Position numbers and translations under genes: made by a program. A stretch of DNA of 64,000 nucleotides from Nocardioides mangrovicus (GTDB lineage Bacteria > Actinomycetota > Actinomycetes > Propionibacteriales > Nocardioidaceae): the NCBI RefSeq assembly GCF_003674065.1, contig NZ_RDBE01000001.1:15111-79110 (forward strand). Reading direction: 5' to 3'. Of this stretch, positions 521-8,828 are shown piece after piece (within the stretch, counting starts at the first letter, position 1; the number at the start of each line of letters is the position of its first letter). Under the pieces are notes generated by a model. That model saw only the letters and a list, made by a program, of their open reading frames with translations, did no database searches and was not told where the DNA came from.

Positions 521-1462
521 CTACTTCGTCTTCTTGGCCAGGTCGGCGATCGAGGACAGCCCGTACTTCTGCGCGGTCTGCTTGGTGACCACGACGGCGT
601 CGGAGTCCTGGGCCTCGGCCTTGTCCAGCGCCACGAGGTTCGCCGGCAGCGCCTTGGTCAGGGCGGTGTAGACGTCGTCGGGGCTGGTGGCGCTGGCGTT
701 CTTGTCGATGTACTGCAGGATCGTGCCGGTGTACTCGGGGAAGAGGTCCAGCGATCCGCCAGCCAGCGCCGGGTAGTACTTCTCGCGGCTGCCGATGTTG
801 AGCTTCTTGGTGACCGTGGCGCCCTGGGCGGTGAGGGCGTCGGCGTAGATGTCGGCCAGCACGACGTTCTCGGGGAAGTTGGCCGAGCCGACCGTGAGCG
901 TGACGCCCTTGGCCGAGGTGCCGGTGGTGCCGAGGCTGTTGCTCGAGAGCCACTCCTTCGCCACGGCGTCGGGGTCCTGCTTCTTGTTCTGGATCTTGTC
1001 CAGCAGCTCGCCCAGGCCCTCGGTGGTGAGCTTGGCCTGGATGCCGTTGAGCACCTGCTTCACGCCGTCGGTGGCCTTGGTCTTGTTGATGATCGGCACG
1101 ATGTTCTGCGCCGCGAAGTTCGACTTGGGGTCCTTGAGGATCACGAACCCGTTGGCCTCGATCGAGGGATCGGTGGTGAACAGGTCGGCCGCGTCGATCT
1201 GGCCCCGCTTGAGCGCGCCCACGGTGACCGGGCCACCGGTGTCGGTGACCTTGTACTTGCCGAACTCCACGCCGTAGTTCTTCTTCAGGCCCGGGATGCC
1301 GTCGGTGCGGGTCTTGAACTCCGGCGGGCCGCCGAAGATGAAGCCGCCCGCGACGGTGCCGTTGGTCGACGAGCCGGAGTCCGAGCTCGACCCGCAGGCC
1401 GTGAGACCCCCGAGGGCGAGCGCGGCGGTGGCCGCGGCGACGATGAGCTTGTTGGTTCTCAT
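521..1462 (-). CDS. Betaine-type ABC transporter binding lipoprotein, circularly permuted
   Basis: Extracytoplasmic substrate-binding lipoprotein of the OpuAC/ProX family (glycine betaine, choline or carnitine class), 313 aa from the ATG at 1462; an in-frame ATG at 1474 is also possible. The signal peptide ends in lipobox LTAC with Cys23 as lipidation site. The two lobes are in reversed order. The half normally C-terminal (FGGPPEF, DGIPGLKKNYG, LFTTDP, VAKEWL) occupies residues 41-172. A Ser/Gly/Thr linker follows. The half normally N-terminal (VGSANFPENVVLADIYADAL, LNIGSRE, LFPEYTGT, AQDSDAVVVTKQTAQKYG, SSIADLAKK) occupies residues 189-311. Both halves look complete. It lies 28 nt after the permease gene, as the last gene of the operon. 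The ligand class comes from the family; the specific ligand is not known. Confidence 0.9.
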   Translation of the reverse strand: MRTNKLIVAAATAALALGGLTACGSSSDSGSSTNGTVAGGFIFGGPPEFKTRTDGIPGLKKNYGVEFGKYKVTDTGGPVTVGALKRGQIDAADLFTTDPSIEANGFVILKDPKSNFAAQNIVPIINKTKATDGVKQVLNGIQAKLTTEGLGELLDKIQNKKQDPDAVAKEWLSSNSLGTTGTSAKGVTLTVGSANFPENVVLADIYADALTAQGATVTKKLNIGSREKYYPALAGGSLDLFPEYTGTILQYIDKNASATSPDDVYTALTKALPANLVALDKAEAQDSDAVVVTKQTAQKYGLSSIADLAKKTK

Positions 1463-2240: not shown

Positions 2241-2938
2241 CGGCTGCGCACCGCCCGCCGCCACGGGGTCAGTGCTCGGTCGACCAGGAGCACGATCGCG
2301 TCGAGCACCAGCGCCAGCAGCACGCACATGACGATGCCGAGCACGATCGGCGGGTAGTAGGGCTCGGTGACCGAGAGCGTGTAGCCCTGGTCGAAGAGCC
2401 GCCCGAGGTTGTCGAGGCCGATGGTGCCGGCCACCGCGACGATGCTGACGTTGGCGACGACGGCCACCCGCAGCCCGGCGGTGATGACCGGCACGGCGAT
2501 CGGCAGCTCGACGCGGAAGAACCGGGCCAGCGGCCGGTAGCCCAGCGCCGTCGCGGCCTGCACGGTCTCGGTGGGCACCGCGCCCAGGCCGTCGGCGACC
2601 ACCCGCACCAGCAGCGAGGTGGAGTAGATCGACAGCGCGATCGGCACCTGCAGCGGCGTCAGCGGGTCGAGCCCGAGCAGCGGCGGGATAAGCACGAAGA
2701 GCGCGATGGAGGGGATCGTGTAGAGCAGGCCGGTGATCGACATCATCGGGGGATACGCCCAGGAGTAGCGGCGTGCCAGCCAGCCCAGCGGCAGCGCGAG
2801 CAGCAGCCCGACCACGACCGGCACCACCGAGAGCCAGGTGTGGTCCCACAGCCAGCCCAGGTCGGTGGCGCGGTGGTCGAGGAAGTACCCGAAGAAGTAC
2901 CAGGGCGAGGAGCTCGCGGAGTCGAGGAGGGTGAGCAT
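2237..2938 (-). CDS. Osmoprotectant ABC transporter permease
   Basis: Second permease of the same transporter, 233 aa, paralogous to the downstream one. The ATG at 2938 overlaps the stop of the ATPase gene (ATGA), which sets the start. About five to six membrane segments are visible, including LSVVPVVVGLLLALPLGWLA, SITGLLYTIPSIALFVLIPP, ITAGLRVAVVANVSIVAVAG and IVLGIVMCVLLALVLDAIVL. The ATPase-docking loop reads ETVQAATALGYRPLARFFRV. Two adjacent permease genes imply a heterodimeric channel, as in OpuB/OpuC systems, rather than a homodimer as in ProW. Confidence 0.88.
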   Translation of the reverse strand: MLTLLDSASSSPWYFFGYFLDHRATDLGWLWDHTWLSVVPVVVGLLLALPLGWLARRYSWAYPPMMSITGLLYTIPSIALFVLIPPLLGLDPLTPLQVPIALSIYSTSLLVRVVADGLGAVPTETVQAATALGYRPLARFFRVELPIAVPVITAGLRVAVVANVSIVAVAGTIGLDNLGRLFDQGYTLSVTEPYYPPIVLGIVMCVLLALVLDAIVLLVDRALTPWRRAVRSR

Positions 2939-4026
2939 CAGCCGCGCTTCTCGATCAGGTCCAGCACCTCGCGGGCGGTGACCGAGCCGACCAGCCGGCC
3001 GGAGTCGTCGACCACCACGCCGCGGCCCGACGGCGAGGACAGGCACGCGTCCAGCACCGCGCGCAGCGAGCCGCCCTGGGCGGCCAGGGTGCCGCCGCGG
3101 TAGAGCATCGCATCGGTGACGACGTCGCCCCGCTGCTCCTCGCCGGTGGGCAGCCAGCCCTGCGGCTTGCCGTCGGCGTCGACGGCGAGGATCCAGCCGT
3201 CGATCCCCGCACCGTGGCCGGGGTAGGCCGCACCGACGGCGACGCTGGGCTCCTGGTGGGTGTCGATGGTGCCGGCTCCGGTGAAGCCGAGCGCCCGGTA
3301 GCCGCGGTCGCGACCGACGAACCCGGCGACGAAGGCGTCGACCGGTCTAGCCAGCAGGTCGGCGGGGGCGGCGAGCTGGGCCAGCTTGCCGCCGACGCGC
3401 AGCACGGCGACCTGGTCGCCGAGCTTGATGGCCTCGTCGATGTCGTGGGTGACGAAGACGATGGTCTTGCCCAGGTCGTTCTGCAGCCGCAGGAACTCCT
3501 CCTGCAGCTGCTCGCGCACTACCGGGTCGACGGCCGAGAACGGCTCGTCCATCAGCATCACGGGCGGGTCGGCGGCCAGGGCCCGGGCCACGCCGACGCG
3601 CTGCTGCTGGCCGCCGGAGAGCTGCGCGGGGTAGCGCTTGGCGAAGGCCGGGTCGAGGCCGACCCGCTCGATGAGCTCCATCGCCCGGGCGCGGGCCTTC
3701 GTCTTGTCCTCGCCCAGCAGCAGCGGCACCGTGGCGACGTTGTCGACGATGGTGCGGTGGGGGAAGAGGCCGGCGTTCTGGATGACGTAGCCGATCTGGC
3801 GACGCAGCTCGTGCGCGGGCAGGCTCGCGGTGTCGGTGTCGTCGAGCCAGATGGTGCCGGAGGTGGGCTCGATCATCCGGTTGATCATCCGCAGCGAGGT
3901 GGTCTTGCCGCAGCCCGAGGGCCCGACCAGGACCGTGATCTGTCCCGAGGGCGCCTCCAGGCTCAGCTCGTCGACGGCGACGGTGCCGTCCGGGTAGCGC
4001 TTCGTGGCGCCGTCGAAGCGGATCAT
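2938..4026 (-). CDS. Osmoprotectant ABC transporter ATP-binding protein
   Basis: Cytoplasmic ATPase of the transporter, 362 aa, OpuCA/ProV-like. Visible motifs are Walker A GPSGCGKTT (about residues 35-43), Q-loop VIQNAGLFPH, ABC signature LSGGQQQRVGVARAL, Walker B VMLMDEPFSAVDP and the H-loop FVTHDIDEA. The C-terminal part of about 120 residues resembles one or two CBS modules (ending SGRGVVVDDSGRLVGSVTAREVLDLIEK), which in OpuA-type systems sense ionic strength or c-di-AMP; that role here is inferred. The ATG at 4026 is set by an AGGAGG box six nt upstream. It is the first gene of the four-gene operon and diverges from the ammonia-lyase-like gene across 125 bp. Confidence 0.92.
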   Translation of the reverse strand: MIRFDGATKRYPDGTVAVDELSLEAPSGQITVLVGPSGCGKTTSLRMINRMIEPTSGTIWLDDTDTASLPAHELRRQIGYVIQNAGLFPHRTIVDNVATVPLLLGEDKTKARARAMELIERVGLDPAFAKRYPAQLSGGQQQRVGVARALAADPPVMLMDEPFSAVDPVVREQLQEEFLRLQNDLGKTIVFVTHDIDEAIKLGDQVAVLRVGGKLAQLAAPADLLARPVDAFVAGFVGRDRGYRALGFTGAGTIDTHQEPSVAVGAAYPGHGAGIDGWILAVDADGKPQGWLPTGEEQRGDVVTDAMLYRGGTLAAQGGSLRAVLDACLSSPSGRGVVVDDSGRLVGSVTAREVLDLIEKRG

Positions 4027-4151: not shown

Positions 4152-5630
4152 TTGCCCGAGCTCGACGGCTCCCATCTGAGCCTGGACGACGTCCTCGCCG
4201 TGGCCCGCCGCCGCGAGCCCGTGCGGCTCTCGCGCGAGGCCCGCGACCGGATCGCCGCCTCGCACGCCTTCGCCGCCGACGTCGCGGCCTCGCGCCCGAT
4301 CTACGGCCGTTCCACCGGCGTCGGCGCCAACCGCGACCTGGTGCTGCCCGACCCCGACTCCCAGGCGCTGCTGCTGCTGCGCTCGCACGCGACGTCGTCG
4401 GGACCGCTGCGCTCGGCCGAGCGGGTGCGGGCGATGCTCACGGTGCGGCTGAACCAGCTGGCCGCCGACGGCAACGGTGTCGATCCGGCGATCGTCGACG
4501 CGCTGGTGGAGATGACCGCCTCCGACGACCTGCCACCCGTGCGTGAGGGCGGCAGCATCGGGACCGCCGACCTGGCCGCGCTGGCCACCACCGCCCTGGT
4601 GCTGGCCGGCGAGACCGGCACGGCGCAGCACCCGGTGCGGTTCGGGGCGGGCGACGCGCTCACCTTCATGTCCAGCAACGCCGCGGTGCTCGGCGACTCC
4701 GTCCTGGCCATCGCGGACCTGACCCGGCTCGCGACCGCGGTGCCCGTGGTCGCGGCGATGGGGTTCGCCGCCGTGCGCGGCAACCCCGAGGCGTTCTCAC
4801 CCGCCGTGGAGGCGGCCTCGCCCTTCCCCGGCGTCGCGCAGGTGTGCCGGGCGATGCGCGGCCTCCTCGACGACCACGAGCGCCCCGCCCGCATCCAGGA
4901 CCCGTTCGGGCTGCGCACGCTGCCCCAGGTGCACGGCGCGCTGGTCGACGCCCTCGACCGCGCCGCCTCGGTGACGCTGGCGATGGCCGGGGCGCCCTCG
5001 GAGAACCCGATCGTCTCCGCGCGGCTGGGCGTCGCCCACCATGGCGGCTTCCACGCCGCCTACCTGGTGCAGGCCCTCGACGCGCTGGTGCTCGCACTGG
5101 CACAGTCCGCGCAGCTATCGCTGGCACGGGTGACGATGCTCGCCGAGCCCTCCTACACCGGGCTGCATCCCTTCCTCGGCGACGGCACCCCGGCGGCCAG
5201 CGGCATGATGATCGTGGAGTACAGCGCCGCCTCGGCCCTGGCCGAGCTGCGCGCGATGGCCACCCCGGCGGGGATGCAGGTCGTCACGCTCTCGCGCGGC
5301 GTCGAGGAGGACGCCTCGTTCGCCACCCTGGCCGCCCACCAGGCGCTCGAGGCCGTCGAGCGCTACCGGGCGGTGCTCGCCGCCGAGCTCGTCACCGCGC
5401 TGCGGTGCCTGCGGATGCAGGGCCGCCGCCCGGCGCGGTTGGAGCAGGTGCTGGCGGTGCTCGACGAGGCCGACGGTGGGGTCGTCGACGTCGAGGACCG
5501 CGACCTCACCAACGACCTGTTGCTGGCCGAGGGGTCGGTATGGCGGTTGGGGGAGGTCGCAGCGGGTGGCAGGGGTTTTGCCGGGCACCCGGCAAAACCC
5601 CGGGAAAACGGCGTCAATTCCGGTCGCTGA
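4152..5630 (+). CDS. HutH/PAL-type ammonia-lyase homologue lacking the MIO triad
   Basis: Member of the histidine/phenylalanine ammonia-lyase fold, 492 aa, from a TTG start preceded by GAGGAGGGG. Family landmarks are present: YGRSTGVGAN near residue 56, QDPFGLRTLPQVHGA, GAPSENPIVSA, and VEEDASFATLAAH, the counterpart of the family's QEDHVSM region. The active-site loop differs. Where the family has G-S-[VL]-G-[AC]-S-G-D-L, from whose Ala-Ser-Gly the MIO electrophile forms, this protein has G134-S-I-G-T138-A139-D140-L: one residue shorter and with no Ser or Gly. Classical ammonia-lyase chemistry is therefore unlikely; a different reaction or a binding role is possible. The last ~18 residues are encoded by a dispersed palindrome. 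It diverges from the betaine transporter operon. Confidence 0.8.
   Translation: MPELDGSHLSLDDVLAVARRREPVRLSREARDRIAASHAFAADVAASRPIYGRSTGVGANRDLVLPDPDSQALLLLRSHATSSGPLRSAERVRAMLTVRLNQLAADGNGVDPAIVDALVEMTASDDLPPVREGGSIGTADLAALATTALVLAGETGTAQHPVRFGAGDALTFMSSNAAVLGDSVLAIADLTRLATAVPVVAAMGFAAVRGNPEAFSPAVEAASPFPGVAQVCRAMRGLLDDHERPARIQDPFGLRTLPQVHGALVDALDRAASVTLAMAGAPSENPIVSARLGVAHHGGFHAAYLVQALDALVLALAQSAQLSLARVTMLAEPSYTGLHPFLGDGTPAASGMMIVEYSAASALAELRAMATPAGMQVVTLSRGVEEDASFATLAAHQALEAVERYRAVLAAELVTALRCLRMQGRRPARLEQVLAVLDEADGGVVDVEDRDLTNDLLLAEGSVWRLGEVAAGGRGFAGHPAKPRENGVNSGR
5572..5601. repeat. Dispersed 30-bp palindrome, copy 1
   Basis: Perfect palindrome with arms GGGGTTTTGCCGGG and CCCGGCAAAACCCC around a CA centre. 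It lies inside the last codons of the ammonia-lyase-like gene and is translated there as GFAGHPAKP. It shares its core with copies at 10844, 62922 and 62988. Confidence 0.9.
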
Positions 5631-5666
5631 GACGAGTTTCGTGCAGACGCCGCCCGAACCGTCCGT

Positions 5667-6167
5667 TTAGTCCAGCGGCGCCGGGGGCTGCTTGCCCTCG
5701 CGCTCGAAGGACGCCGCGATCTCGGCCTCGGCCTCGGTCCGGCCGACCCAGTCCGAGCCCTCGACCGACTTGGCGGGCTCGAGGTCCTTGTAGACCTCGA
5801 AGAAGTGCTGGATCTCCAGCCGGTCGAACTTGGAGACGTGGCTGATGTCGCGCAGGTGCTCTTGGCGCGGGTCGGTGAGCGGGACGCAGAGGACCTTGTC
5901 GTCGGGGCCCTTCTCGTCGGTCATCCGGTACATCCCGATCGCGCGGCAGCGGATGAGGCAGCCGGGGAACGTCGGCTCCAGCAGCAGCACCAGCGCGTCG
6001 AGCGGGTCGCCGTCCTGTCCGAGGGTGTCCTCGATGTAGCCGTAGTCGGCCGGGTACTGGGTCGAGGTGAACAGGGTGCGGTCCAGGCGCAGCCGCCCGG
6101 TGTGGTGGTCCACCTCGTACTTGTTGCGCTGACCCTTGGGGATCTCCACCAGGACGTCGAACTCCAC
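5667..6167 (-). CDS. ppa: Inorganic pyrophosphatase
   Basis: Soluble family I inorganic pyrophosphatase, which hydrolyses PPi to two phosphates and pulls biosynthetic reactions forward. The length of 166 aa is normal for the bacterial type. Recognisable segments are the N-terminal [17 protein letters not shown], the [24 protein letters not shown] block carrying the Mg-binding acidic residues (D-G-D-P-L-D), and [13 protein letters not shown]. The start is GTG 6167 with GGAGGG eight nt upstream. It converges with the ammonia-lyase-like gene (36 bp gap) and diverges from dacB. Confidence 0.96.
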
Positions 6168-6244
6168 CGCGCCACCCTCCTTCGCCGGAACTGTCCGCAG
6201 TCTCCCTCACAATGGTCCGGACCCGACAATCAGCAAGGAGGACC

Positions 6245-7675
6245 GTGACCCGGATCACCCGTCGTCGCCGACGCGTCTGGCCGGGGCTGCTGCTCGACTC
6301 CCTGGTCGTGGGGCTGCTGGCCTTCGCGCTGGTCGCCTGGCACTTCGACCTCGGCACCCGGTGGGGCATCGCGCCCGACCCCCGCACCGAGCCGGCCGAG
6401 GTCGCCGCACCCGCCGGGCTGAGCCTGCCCGAGGTCCGGCCCGCGGCCGCCGTGGCGAAGCCTCAGACCGGCAGCAGCGCCTCGCCGGCGAAGGTCCGCG
6501 CGGCGGTCGACTCGCTGCTGGCCGACGCCAAGCTCGGCACGCACGTACGTGCCCTGGTCACCGATCTCGACTCCGGCACGACGCTGCTCGACCACGGCAC
6601 CGGCGACGTCACCCCGGCCTCGACCAACAAGCTGCTCACCGCCGCCGCGGCGCTTCACTCGCTGGGCCCCTCCACCCGGTTCGAGACGACGGTCGTACGG
6701 GTGCCGGGCACGCGCCGCGTCGTGCTGGTCGGGGGCGGCGACCCGTTCCTCGCCTCCACCTCGGGCGGCAAGGACTCCTACCCCAAGCGCGCCAGCGTCA
6801 AGGCACTCGCGCACCGCACCGCCGACGCGCTCAAGGCGGCCGGCGTGACGCAGGTCCGGCTCGGCTATGACGACAGCCTGTTCTCCGGGCCGGCGTTCAA
6901 CCCCCACTGGCCCTCCGACTACTTCCCGACCGTCGTGCCGTCGATCACCTCGCTGTGGGTCGACGAAGCCATGCCGAAGGGGCAGTACACCTACGTCAGC
7001 GACCCCAGCCTCAACGCCGCCCAGATCTTCGCCACCGACCTCGCCGGCTTCGGCGTCCGCACCATCGGCACGCCGGTGCACGGCAAGGCGCCGTCGGGGG
7101 CGCAGCAGGTGGCCGCGGTCTCCTCGGCGCCACTGGGGCAGATCGTCGCCCGGCTGCTGCTGGTCAGCGACAACAACGCCGCGGAGGTCGTCGCCCGCCA
7201 CGTCGGCATCAAGGAGGGTGACGGCGGCAGTTTCACCGGCGCGGTCAAGGGCGTCCACACCGTCCTCGGGCAGCTGGGCATCGGTCTCGACGGGGCCGTC
7301 CTCTACGACGGCAGCGGCCTCTCTCGCGAGGACCGGCTGCGACCGGAGACGCTGATGGCCGTGGTCCGCACGATCTCCAGTGCCCAGCATCCCGAGCTGC
7401 GCGAGGCGCTGACCGGGTTGCCGGTGGCCGGGTTCAGCGGCTCGCTGCTGTGGCGCTTCGACCACGACCCCCCGGCGGCGCGGGGCCGGGTCTACGCCAA
7501 GACCGGCACCTTGACCGGCGTCCACGCCCTGGCCGGTGTCGCCACCGATCTCGACGGCGACGTCCTCGGCTTCGTGCTCGTGGTCGACAAGGTCGCCGCG
7601 GCGAACGAGGGCTACGCCCAGGCCAAGCTCGACGCCGTCGCCGCCGCGCTGGGGTCCTGCCAGTGCCGCTCCTAG
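6245..7675 (+). CDS. dacB: D-alanyl-D-alanine carboxypeptidase/endopeptidase (PBP4 type)
   Basis: Serine peptidase of the S13 family that trims peptidoglycan stem peptides outside the membrane. From GTG 6245 (AGGAGG just upstream) it has 476 aa. An upstream in-frame ATG at 6212 lacks a ribosome site. An uncleaved signal anchor (LLLDSLVVGLLAFALVAW) follows an Arg-rich N-terminus. The penicillin-binding motifs are S126-T-N-K129, S308-D-N and K419-T-G. The spacing of about 180 residues between the first two motifs fits the large insert of PBP4 proteins. The following genes (metalloprotease, tilS) keep the usual actinobacterial order. Confidence 0.93.
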   Translation: MTRITRRRRRVWPGLLLDSLVVGLLAFALVAWHFDLGTRWGIAPDPRTEPAEVAAPAGLSLPEVRPAAAVAKPQTGSSASPAKVRAAVDSLLADAKLGTHVRALVTDLDSGTTLLDHGTGDVTPASTNKLLTAAAALHSLGPSTRFETTVVRVPGTRRVVLVGGGDPFLASTSGGKDSYPKRASVKALAHRTADALKAAGVTQVRLGYDDSLFSGPAFNPHWPSDYFPTVVPSITSLWVDEAMPKGQYTYVSDPSLNAAQIFATDLAGFGVRTIGTPVHGKAPSGAQQVAAVSSAPLGQIVARLLLVSDNNAAEVVARHVGIKEGDGGSFTGAVKGVHTVLGQLGIGLDGAVLYDGSGLSREDRLRPETLMAVVRTISSAQHPELREALTGLPVAGFSGSLLWRFDHDPPAARGRVYAKTGTLTGVHALAGVATDLDGDVLGFVLVVDKVAAANEGYAQAKLDAVAAALGSCQCRS

Positions 7676-7745
7676 GCCGCCTGGAGGCCCGCTCGCGGCC
7701 CGCTGCTGCAGCGGTCGAGGGGGCGCCGGTCTGGTCGCCGGTGCG

Positions 7746-7751
7746 TAGGGT
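7746..7751 (+). promoter_or_regulatory. -10 box for a leaderless transcript
   Basis: TAGGGT ends six nt before the ATG at 7758 and no Shine-Dalgarno sequence is present, so transcription would begin at about the start codon. Confidence 0.45.
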
Positions 7752-7757
7752 CGAGGC

Positions 7758-8828
7758 ATGACCGACTCCGGCTCCTCACCTGGGCGCTCGTCGATGATCG
7801 ACTGGGACCTGGCGGTCAACGTCGGGGCCAAGATGGCCGGCGACGGTCCGTCGGTCTCCTGGGAGGAGGCGGCCGACGTCGTCGGCGAGCTGCGTGGCGG
7901 TGCCGAGCGGTCGAGCCCGCTGGTGCGGGAGTACACCGGGCTGGTCGCCCAGGAGCGCACCGCTCCGGTGCTCGTGGTGGACCGTCGCGGCTGGCTGCAG
8001 GCCAATGTCGACGGCTTCGGTCAGGTGATCAGCCCGCTCATCGACAAGCTGCAGGAGAAGAAGGGCCCGCCCTCGGCGATGGCGCAGGCGGTCGGCTCGC
8101 GCGTGACCGGCGCCGAGCTCGGGTTCATGCTCGGCTTCCTCTCCAGCAAGGTGCTCGGCCAGTTCGACCCGTTCTACGACGCCGACGGCGCCACCGGGCG
8201 GTTGCTGCTGGTGGCGCCCAACATCGTGCAGGTCGAGCGCGAGCTCGACGTCGACGCGCACGACTTCCGGCTGTGGGTGTGCCTGCACGAGGAGACCCAC
8301 CGGGTGCAGTTCACCGCCGTGCCGTGGATGCGCGACCACCTGTGGAGTCAGATGCGGCTGATTGTCGGGGAGATCGAGTCCGACCCGGCGAAGGTGCTCG
8401 GTGATGCGCTGAAGAAGGTCGGCGACGTGCTCTCCGGCCGCGCCGAGGGCTCCTTGATCGAGGTGTTCTCCTCCCCGGCCCAGCGGGAGGTCATCGACCG
8501 CATCACCGGCGTGATGAGCCTGCTCGAGGGTCACGCCGACGTCGTGATGGACGGCGTCGGCCCCGAGGTCATCCCCAGCGTGGAGCGGATCCGGGCGCGG
8601 TTCAACGACCGCCGCAAGGGTGCCGGCGCGCTCGACCGGCTGGTGCGGCGGCTGCTCGGCCTGGAGCAGAAGATGGCCCAGTACCGCGACGGCGCCGTCT
8701 TCGTCCGCGAGGTCGTCGACAAGGTCGGGATGAGCGGCTTCAACGCCGTCTGGCAGGGCCCGGAGAACCTGCCGTCCAAGACCGAGATCCACGAACCCGC
8801 CGCCTGGCTCGCCCGCGTGCACGGCTGA
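7758..8828 (+). CDS. Zinc-dependent metalloprotease-like protein (DUF2342 type)
   Basis: Soluble 356-aa protein of an actinobacterial family annotated as zinc-dependent metalloprotease or as coenzyme-F420-biosynthesis associated. The zincin motif is H177-E-E-T-H181, in VCLHEETHRVQFTAVPWMRDHL. A second acidic/His region, SLLEGHADVVMDG, lies about 75 residues later and probably holds the third zinc ligand. There is no signal peptide, so it acts in the cytoplasm. It stands between dacB and tilS, as in many actinobacteria, and ends five nt before tilS. Its substrate is unknown, and the F420 link is genomic association only; no F420 genes are in this window. Confidence 0.85.
   Translation: MTDSGSSPGRSSMIDWDLAVNVGAKMAGDGPSVSWEEAADVVGELRGGAERSSPLVREYTGLVAQERTAPVLVVDRRGWLQANVDGFGQVISPLIDKLQEKKGPPSAMAQAVGSRVTGAELGFMLGFLSSKVLGQFDPFYDADGATGRLLLVAPNIVQVERELDVDAHDFRLWVCLHEETHRVQFTAVPWMRDHLWSQMRLIVGEIESDPAKVLGDALKKVGDVLSGRAEGSLIEVFSSPAQREVIDRITGVMSLLEGHADVVMDGVGPEVIPSVERIRARFNDRRKGAGALDRLVRRLLGLEQKMAQYRDGAVFVREVVDKVGMSGFNAVWQGPENLPSKTEIHEPAAWLARVHG

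Follow-up and report, generated by a model that had tools for sequence, protein, structure and literature searches.

A binding lipoprotein with its domain halves swapped

The window analysed here is a stretch of 64,000 nucleotides from Nocardioides mangrovicus (contig NZ_RDBE01000001.1). At positions 521 to 1462, on the minus strand, a single open frame encodes a protein of 313 residues, a substrate-binding lipoprotein with sequence kinship to the cluster F-III binding proteins, which the reading frame, swapped matches to the Pfam profile PF04069 and an AlphaFold2 model identify as circularly permuted. Read from the sequence, the chain begins with a signal peptide and the lipobox LTAC (residues 1-23, positions 1394-1462, minus strand like all parts of the gene). 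The lipobox cysteine, Cys23, does not vary in the two alignments that we made of permuted proteins, one of 10 and one of 23 rows, each counting the window protein. A Ser/Gly/Thr-rich tether with a low predicted local distance difference test (pLDDT) score leads from there into lobe 2 (residues 24-40, positions 1343-1393). The original C-terminal half follows, running from FIFGGPPEF to VAKEWLSS (residues 41-176, positions 935-1342) and matching profile positions 117-256. A linker of high pLDDT (residues 177-187, positions 902-934), which alignment to canonical relatives places between the ancestral C- and N-termini, then joins it to the original N-terminal half (residues 188-313, positions 524-901; profile positions 2-113), and the protein ends in SSIADLAKKTK.

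PF04069, the OpuAC substrate-binding domain, has 257 positions and a curated cut-off of 21.2 bits, which the window protein exceeds at 172.6 bits (E 1.6e-50) in two stretches. In a whole-genome scan profile positions 117-256 were found at residues 43-173, ahead of positions 2-113, with the C-terminal half first and nearly the whole profile covered. Chance is excluded because the two pieces, searched singly, match opposite ends of the profile, the C-terminal piece at positions 2-112 (6.6e-25) and the N-terminal piece at positions 118-252 (4.3e-22). A canonical relative used as a control, L061, gave one collinear stretch over positions 1-257, which is the topology of canonical OpuCC, AfProX and EgtU and is not that of the window protein. 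Using phmmer against the Protein Data Bank (PDB) we obtained 27 distinct sequences at E-values up to 1, each in two stretches, and the swap is visible in the three alignments printed. Both halves are complete, come from one family and stand in swapped order, and canonical homologues exist; the protein is a true natural circular permutant. An earlier note, made from the DNA letters alone, had proposed that the second block of the domain precedes the first with both blocks intact, and the profile matches bear this out, with no match in normal order and neither half belonging to another family.

Two more OpuAC-domain proteins are encoded in the same genome, L001 (G000:C1:365622-366431) and L002 (C19:502615-503409), both collinear, the latter ProX-like by its PDB matches. 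We rejected these duplicates as donors, as each gives a single collinear PF04069 stretch and is distant.

The AlphaFold2 model of the window protein, predicted from 23 permuted sequences, has a pLDDT of 87.5 and a predicted template modelling score of 0.80, with residues 1-33 below a pLDDT of 50. The new linker is modelled with confidence (mean pLDDT 96 in block 171-180 and 98 in block 181-190). When PDB structures are compared in linear chain order the best match is Bacillus subtilis OpuAC (Foldseek E 8e-12; VIA Z 20.4 over 244 residues at 18% identity), with model residues 36 to 310 aligning in order to 9 to 272, while the best protein other than OpuAC, among the matches listed, reaches Z 10.3. 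The model of the canonical control L061 (pLDDT 89.5) behaves differently, matching AfProX, EgtU, YehZ and OpuBC at Z 28-32, the first three of them near Z 31. The F-III structures fall outside the best 50 rows for the window model and 2b4l outside those for L061, which shows no difference in fold. The prediction gives what the earlier note had expected of it, a two-lobe fold with altered chain order, and by prediction the overall fold would be the same with altered connectivity. The window protein combines the sequence kinship of cluster F-III with the chain order of OpuAC.

The neighbouring genes on the minus strand run in the order ATPase, permease 1, permease 2, binding protein. The ATPase of the ATP-binding cassette (ABC) type (2938-4026) resembles ProV/OpuCA (PF00005, 4.5e-36) and scores 293.9 bits against the TIGR01186 proV model, under its cut-off of 326.6. 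Permease 1 (2237-2938) and permease 2 (1491-2240) both match BPD_transp_1 (PF00528, 2.4e-17 and 5.3e-21, respectively). A lipobox together with an operon holding an ATPase and permeases is what is found for binding lipoproteins of ABC importers, and the gene product would be the lipid-anchored substrate-binding protein of an importer composed of the ATPase, the two permeases and itself.

Occurrence of the permuted form and its origins

Within the same family 149 genomes were scanned, and a full-length permuted homologue is present in 10, the window's own included, nine from the same genus and one (G118) from another. Some match was found in 137 of these genomes and, among the matches listed, the others match in halves only. 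Within the genus the permuted form occurs in 9 of 24 genomes. For the wider draws from the class, from the phylum and of 395 genomes, at most five candidates were scored in each genome passing set E-values, so that their counts are lower bounds: at least 4 of 393 genomes of the class, own included, and at least 11 full-length matches among 396 genomes of the phylum, made up of the own protein, nine with the same cut (~40% identity) and L110, which has another cut. The genome sets overlap, with G028 (L006) from the same genus and Marmoricola endophyticus (L036) scoring identically.

The genome_contigs set yielded 63 loci with a gene for a relative, and by the order of the half-profiles 22 are permuted (L035-L055 and L096) and 41 canonical, from a scan whose patterns were derived from permuted proteins and hence favour them. 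The permuted loci come from Marmoricola, Aeromicrobium, Patulibacter, Pseudofrankia, Catenulispora and several metagenome-assembled genomes (MAGs). Canonical relatives are ~50% identical in each half. Searches around the genomes found in the phylum draw also brought up canonical kin: 24 genomes of one class gave six permuted and six canonical proteins, the canonical C-terminal halves being 61-71% identical to L102; another class gave four permuted and five canonical in 27 genomes, and a third at least three permuted and at least 15 canonical in 395 genomes.

L110 (G852) represents a second cut type, in which the chain is opened deeper in lobe 2, by one helix-strand unit. It starts with FHFKPLDSGG after the lipobox and ends after GGPPEC...YGLKFKQS, and its final Pfam stretch covers profile positions 2-148 rather than 2-113. 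Using L110 as query on 148 genomes of the third class we found two second-cut, one first-cut and three canonical proteins, and the single-contig genome G845 carries an L110-type gene (L123, 51% identical).

The operon is shared by both forms. Searching genome_contigs with the window proteins by tblastn located the ATPase upstream in all but two of the permuted loci (20 of 22; L041 and L053 do not extend far enough) and likewise in all but two of the canonical ones (39 of 41; the exceptions are L081, also too short, and L097), with one or both permeases between ATPase and binding-protein gene in most loci. Among the loci with short flanks (L098-L154), permease 2 is present in 51 of 57, some of which are the same gene fetched twice. 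This conserved position in permuted and canonical loci alike argues that the gene changed without leaving its operon. Several loci carry more than one binding-protein gene. At L045 a distant canonical gene (5979-6905) lies directly downstream of the permuted one, as also at L009, and at L079, from a Catenulisporales MAG, two canonical copies (4884-5792 and 7067-7969) lie ~1.3 kb apart.

For tree building the permuted sequences were rotated in silico. A quick tree of 95 rows placed the 27 window-type sequences in one group (support 98) among canonical ones. On a more careful tree of 60 rows the same-cut label needs four changes, at least three of them forced by starred branches, and with more sampling (61 rows) five changes, all five forced, with a bootstrap range of 5-6. 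Trees of the separate halves of the 60-row set need five changes each, of which four are forced for the N-terminal and two for the C-terminal half. Placing all permuted sequences, a set fixed by gene order, in one clade was rejected by the approximately unbiased test (p-AU 3.7e-04 in a first test and 2e-05 in a later one on the concatenated halves) and on each half of an earlier 60-row set (2.8e-04 for the N- and 4.6e-07 for the C-terminal half). One clade of the permuted sequences outside the window type was likewise rejected (3.5e-04 and 1.9e-04 in the same two tests, and 2.0e-04 without L139, a long branch in the 61-row tree), with p values that are optimistic because such sub-groups were named once the trees had been seen. 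The two second-cut sequences group together when the concatenated sequences or the N-terminal halves are used, and do not in the C-half tree. A cautious reading of these trees is three origins of the same cut conservatively and five in the best tree, plus one second cut at the next loop. They suggest that this rearrangement happened in bacteria on several separate occasions, the gene staying in its transporter operon.

From a lone sequence, errors of assembly or annotation, or a pseudogene left by local rearrangement, could not have been excluded; that explanation is already refuted, the gene being intact in many independent assemblies, including the single-contig G071, G084 and G1173 and, for the second cut, G845, with a recognised lipobox in 22 of the 23 permuted genes of genome_contigs and a variant one in L052. 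A single permutation in an ancestor, followed by returns to the canonical order or by gene conversion, could also give the scattered pattern. The two rejected clades, the canonical order of the solved AfProX, EgtU, OpuBC and YehZ structures, and a hand count in the 61-row tree, where the clade of other-class genomes needs four gains against ten reversals from a permuted ancestor, lead us to regard it as unlikely, even with trees that cannot distinguish gain from loss, permuted N-termini that have a VAS/IAS-like motif in common, and two joined clades that were not rejected (L102 group with L101 group, p-AU 0.10; L109 group with L139, 0.27). Repeated permutation is the account we prefer.

Cut site, binding pocket and a neighbouring lyase

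At the cut region canonical relatives read ...DLxPVAGxLxxGGPPE..., and in the permuted ones the chain stops a few residues past DL, while what follows the lipobox tether opens immediately ahead of that strand, in most cases with VAS or IAS. The cut lies in the loop that precedes strand FIFGG of lobe 2, and about ten residues bridge the old termini. The protein would retain the usual Venus-flytrap fold, with the former lobe 1 forming one unbroken stretch of the chain and lobe 2 divided. By phmmer alignment the cut maps near residues 364-368 of Streptococcus pneumoniae EgtUC, within domain 2, which the available text of PMC9732360 gives as residues 341-432, and the old N-terminus lies in domain 1. 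From these positions the lipid anchor should shift from lobe 1 to lobe 2, where it would then sit; both cut types map to lobe 2. The relocation of the anchor proposed in the earlier note is supported to the extent of this domain mapping.

Each permutation may have arisen through tandem gene duplication followed by loss of the outer halves. Tandem duplication does occur: in Patulibacter minatonensis (class Thermoleophilia; L048) two permuted genes stand in tandem at 4944-5900 and 6045-6995.

Within the predicted pocket R52, F95, F196, Y244 and D286 are kept in all 27 window-type rows. In the nearer set of 60 canonical rows R52 and Y244 are kept in 60, D286 and F196 in 56, and F95 in 45, with Tyr otherwise. 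The aromatic cage of EgtU is made of F293, N339, Y341, Y419 and Y443, as far as the accessible part of PMC9732360 describes it, and the equivalents in the window protein are Y244, D286, D288, F95 and Q119, a partly replaced cage. Neither EgtU nor ProX can therefore serve as a guide to the substrate, and for the same reason we call the protein related to cluster F-III rather than a cage-bearing member of it.

A possible clue to the substrate comes from a gene on the plus strand (4152-5630), divergent from the ABC operon, which by NCBIfam models and PDB relatives encodes a homologue of histidine and aromatic ammonia-lyases. The tripeptide that forms the 4-methylideneimidazole-5-one (MIO) group is Ala-Ser-Gly. 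In the window enzyme the site reads GSIG-TA-DLAAL (about 4548-4583), without that tripeptide, TA being where the modified residue of 7tqr falls in the alignment. The NCBIfam HutH models match under their cut-off, and the best PDB relatives are annotated as histidine ammonia-lyase, with the ergothionase 6s7j at 111 bits. A lyase gene lies near 14 of the 19 permuted loci with enough upstream DNA (L035, L041 and L053 are too short), and 17 counterparts were found near the 41 canonical loci examined, that of L066 in the other orientation. All 14 and all 17 read G-T-G/A-D at the MIO site, and 14 further HutH-like copies near canonical loci, at 34-36% identity, retain CSG. Ergothionase likewise lacks MIO (PMC13405746). 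The lyase is a candidate ergothionase-like enzyme of the histidine ammonia-lyase family without MIO, an activity predicted from sequence. MIO should be dispensable where the leaving group is a quaternary ammonium group, and the pathway may therefore be uptake of an aromatic amino-acid betaine and elimination of trimethylamine from it, the least certain step of our account and in our estimate a little short of an even chance. The permeases would then receive from the binding protein a cationic substrate, an aromatic amino acid that probably carries a quaternary ammonium group.

Taken together, the gene very probably encodes the binding lipoprotein of an ABC importer and a natural circular permutant related to the OpuCC/AfProX/EgtU/OsmF-like proteins of cluster F-III. 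Several observations weigh against parts of this account. The lyase gene is absent at five of the 19 permuted loci (L036, L039, L044, L048 and L096). In the pocket, EgtU Y341 and Y443 are replaced by D288 and Q119, and K242 by A194. Among the open reading frames matching half-profiles we found no duplicated-fusion intermediate (N-C-N or N-C-N-C), with no search dedicated to fusions made, and the sole frame with three stretches is L123, of the second-cut type. The structural model was predicted from the 23 permuted sequences only. NG86 omega values over residues 41-313 are 0.33-0.72 in eight comparisons, which would indicate only moderate constraint, and exceed 1 over the 11-codon linker in four of the eight, weak evidence in DNA so GC-rich that dS is unreliable.

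The shared chain order, and the rank of OpuAC as best linear structural match, would also fit a protein of the B. subtilis OpuAC subfamily, permuted by descent from it. We consider this very improbable given the 18% identity, the absence of OpuAC from the phmmer matches at E up to 1, the ~50% identity of each half to canonical relatives and the nesting of the window clade among canonical sequences in trees built without OpuAC. Whether the recurrent permutation is neutral, with cuts simply falling where the fold tolerates them, seems to us evenly balanced. A short, confidently modelled linker bridges the old termini, OpuAC has the same chain order, and pocket and operon are unchanged; selection on the position of the anchor could just as well account for its recurrence and long persistence in lipid-anchored proteins. 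We suggest, tentatively and at clearly less than an even chance, that the lobe-2 loop is a hot spot of natural circular permutation, the gene having been permuted there in place on no fewer than three and probably five independent occasions in one phylum, once more at the next loop and separately in OpuAC, with the shift of the anchor from lobe 1 to lobe 2 kept by selection.

Comparison with known systems

The closest solved sequences are those of cluster F-III (AfProX, OpuBC/OpuCC, OsmF/YehZ and the EgtU domain), with E-values down to 2.6e-22. A canonical sister of the window protein is predicted to fold like them; in the window protein, however, the halves are in the opposite order and the aromatic cage is partly replaced. 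B. subtilis OpuAC (PDB 2b4l, 2b4m, 3chg and 5nxx) agrees with the window protein in chain order and in the region of the cut but is far removed in sequence, and 2b4l is not among the phmmer matches at E-values up to 1, which places the window protein outside the OpuAC subfamily. That OpuAC is itself a circular permutant is supported by L002, which is swapped against 2b4l (the second stretch being weak alone at 9.8 bits, E 3.9) and in normal order against Lactococcus lactis OpuA, and by the consulted portion of PMC2395249, which in 2008 reported circular permutation among glycine-betaine binding proteins, the permutants sharing <24% identity. The earlier note, which mentioned neither the swap in OpuAC nor the recurrence, had assumed one order for all OpuAC/ProX proteins; this stands as the canonical order of the F-III type, but with OpuAC swapped these proteins do not have one common order.

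As OpuAC has the same chain order, a single case would be a modest curiosity, and the interest lies in repeated in-place permutation among close relatives. Among the titles and abstract openings covered by our literature search, in a collection lacking most subscription journals, we found no OpuCC/OsmF-type protein that is permuted and has canonical versions among its close relatives. Permuted and canonical versions here share about 45-70% identity in each half and the same operon position, and the change recurs at one site. They provide matched natural pairs with which to ask what a swap of chain order does to folding, to ligand binding and docking and to the lipid anchoring, and how permuted genes arise.

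Treponema pallidum MglB-2 (Tp0684) is likewise a natural permuted lipid-anchored binding protein, and its authors raise tethering as a possible cause of the permutation, according to the sections of PMC4990184 available. It differs in having a Type I/cluster B sugar-binding fold and another cut, as the same sections describe. Against these systems the chain order itself is known, from OpuAC, and what is new is its recurrence.
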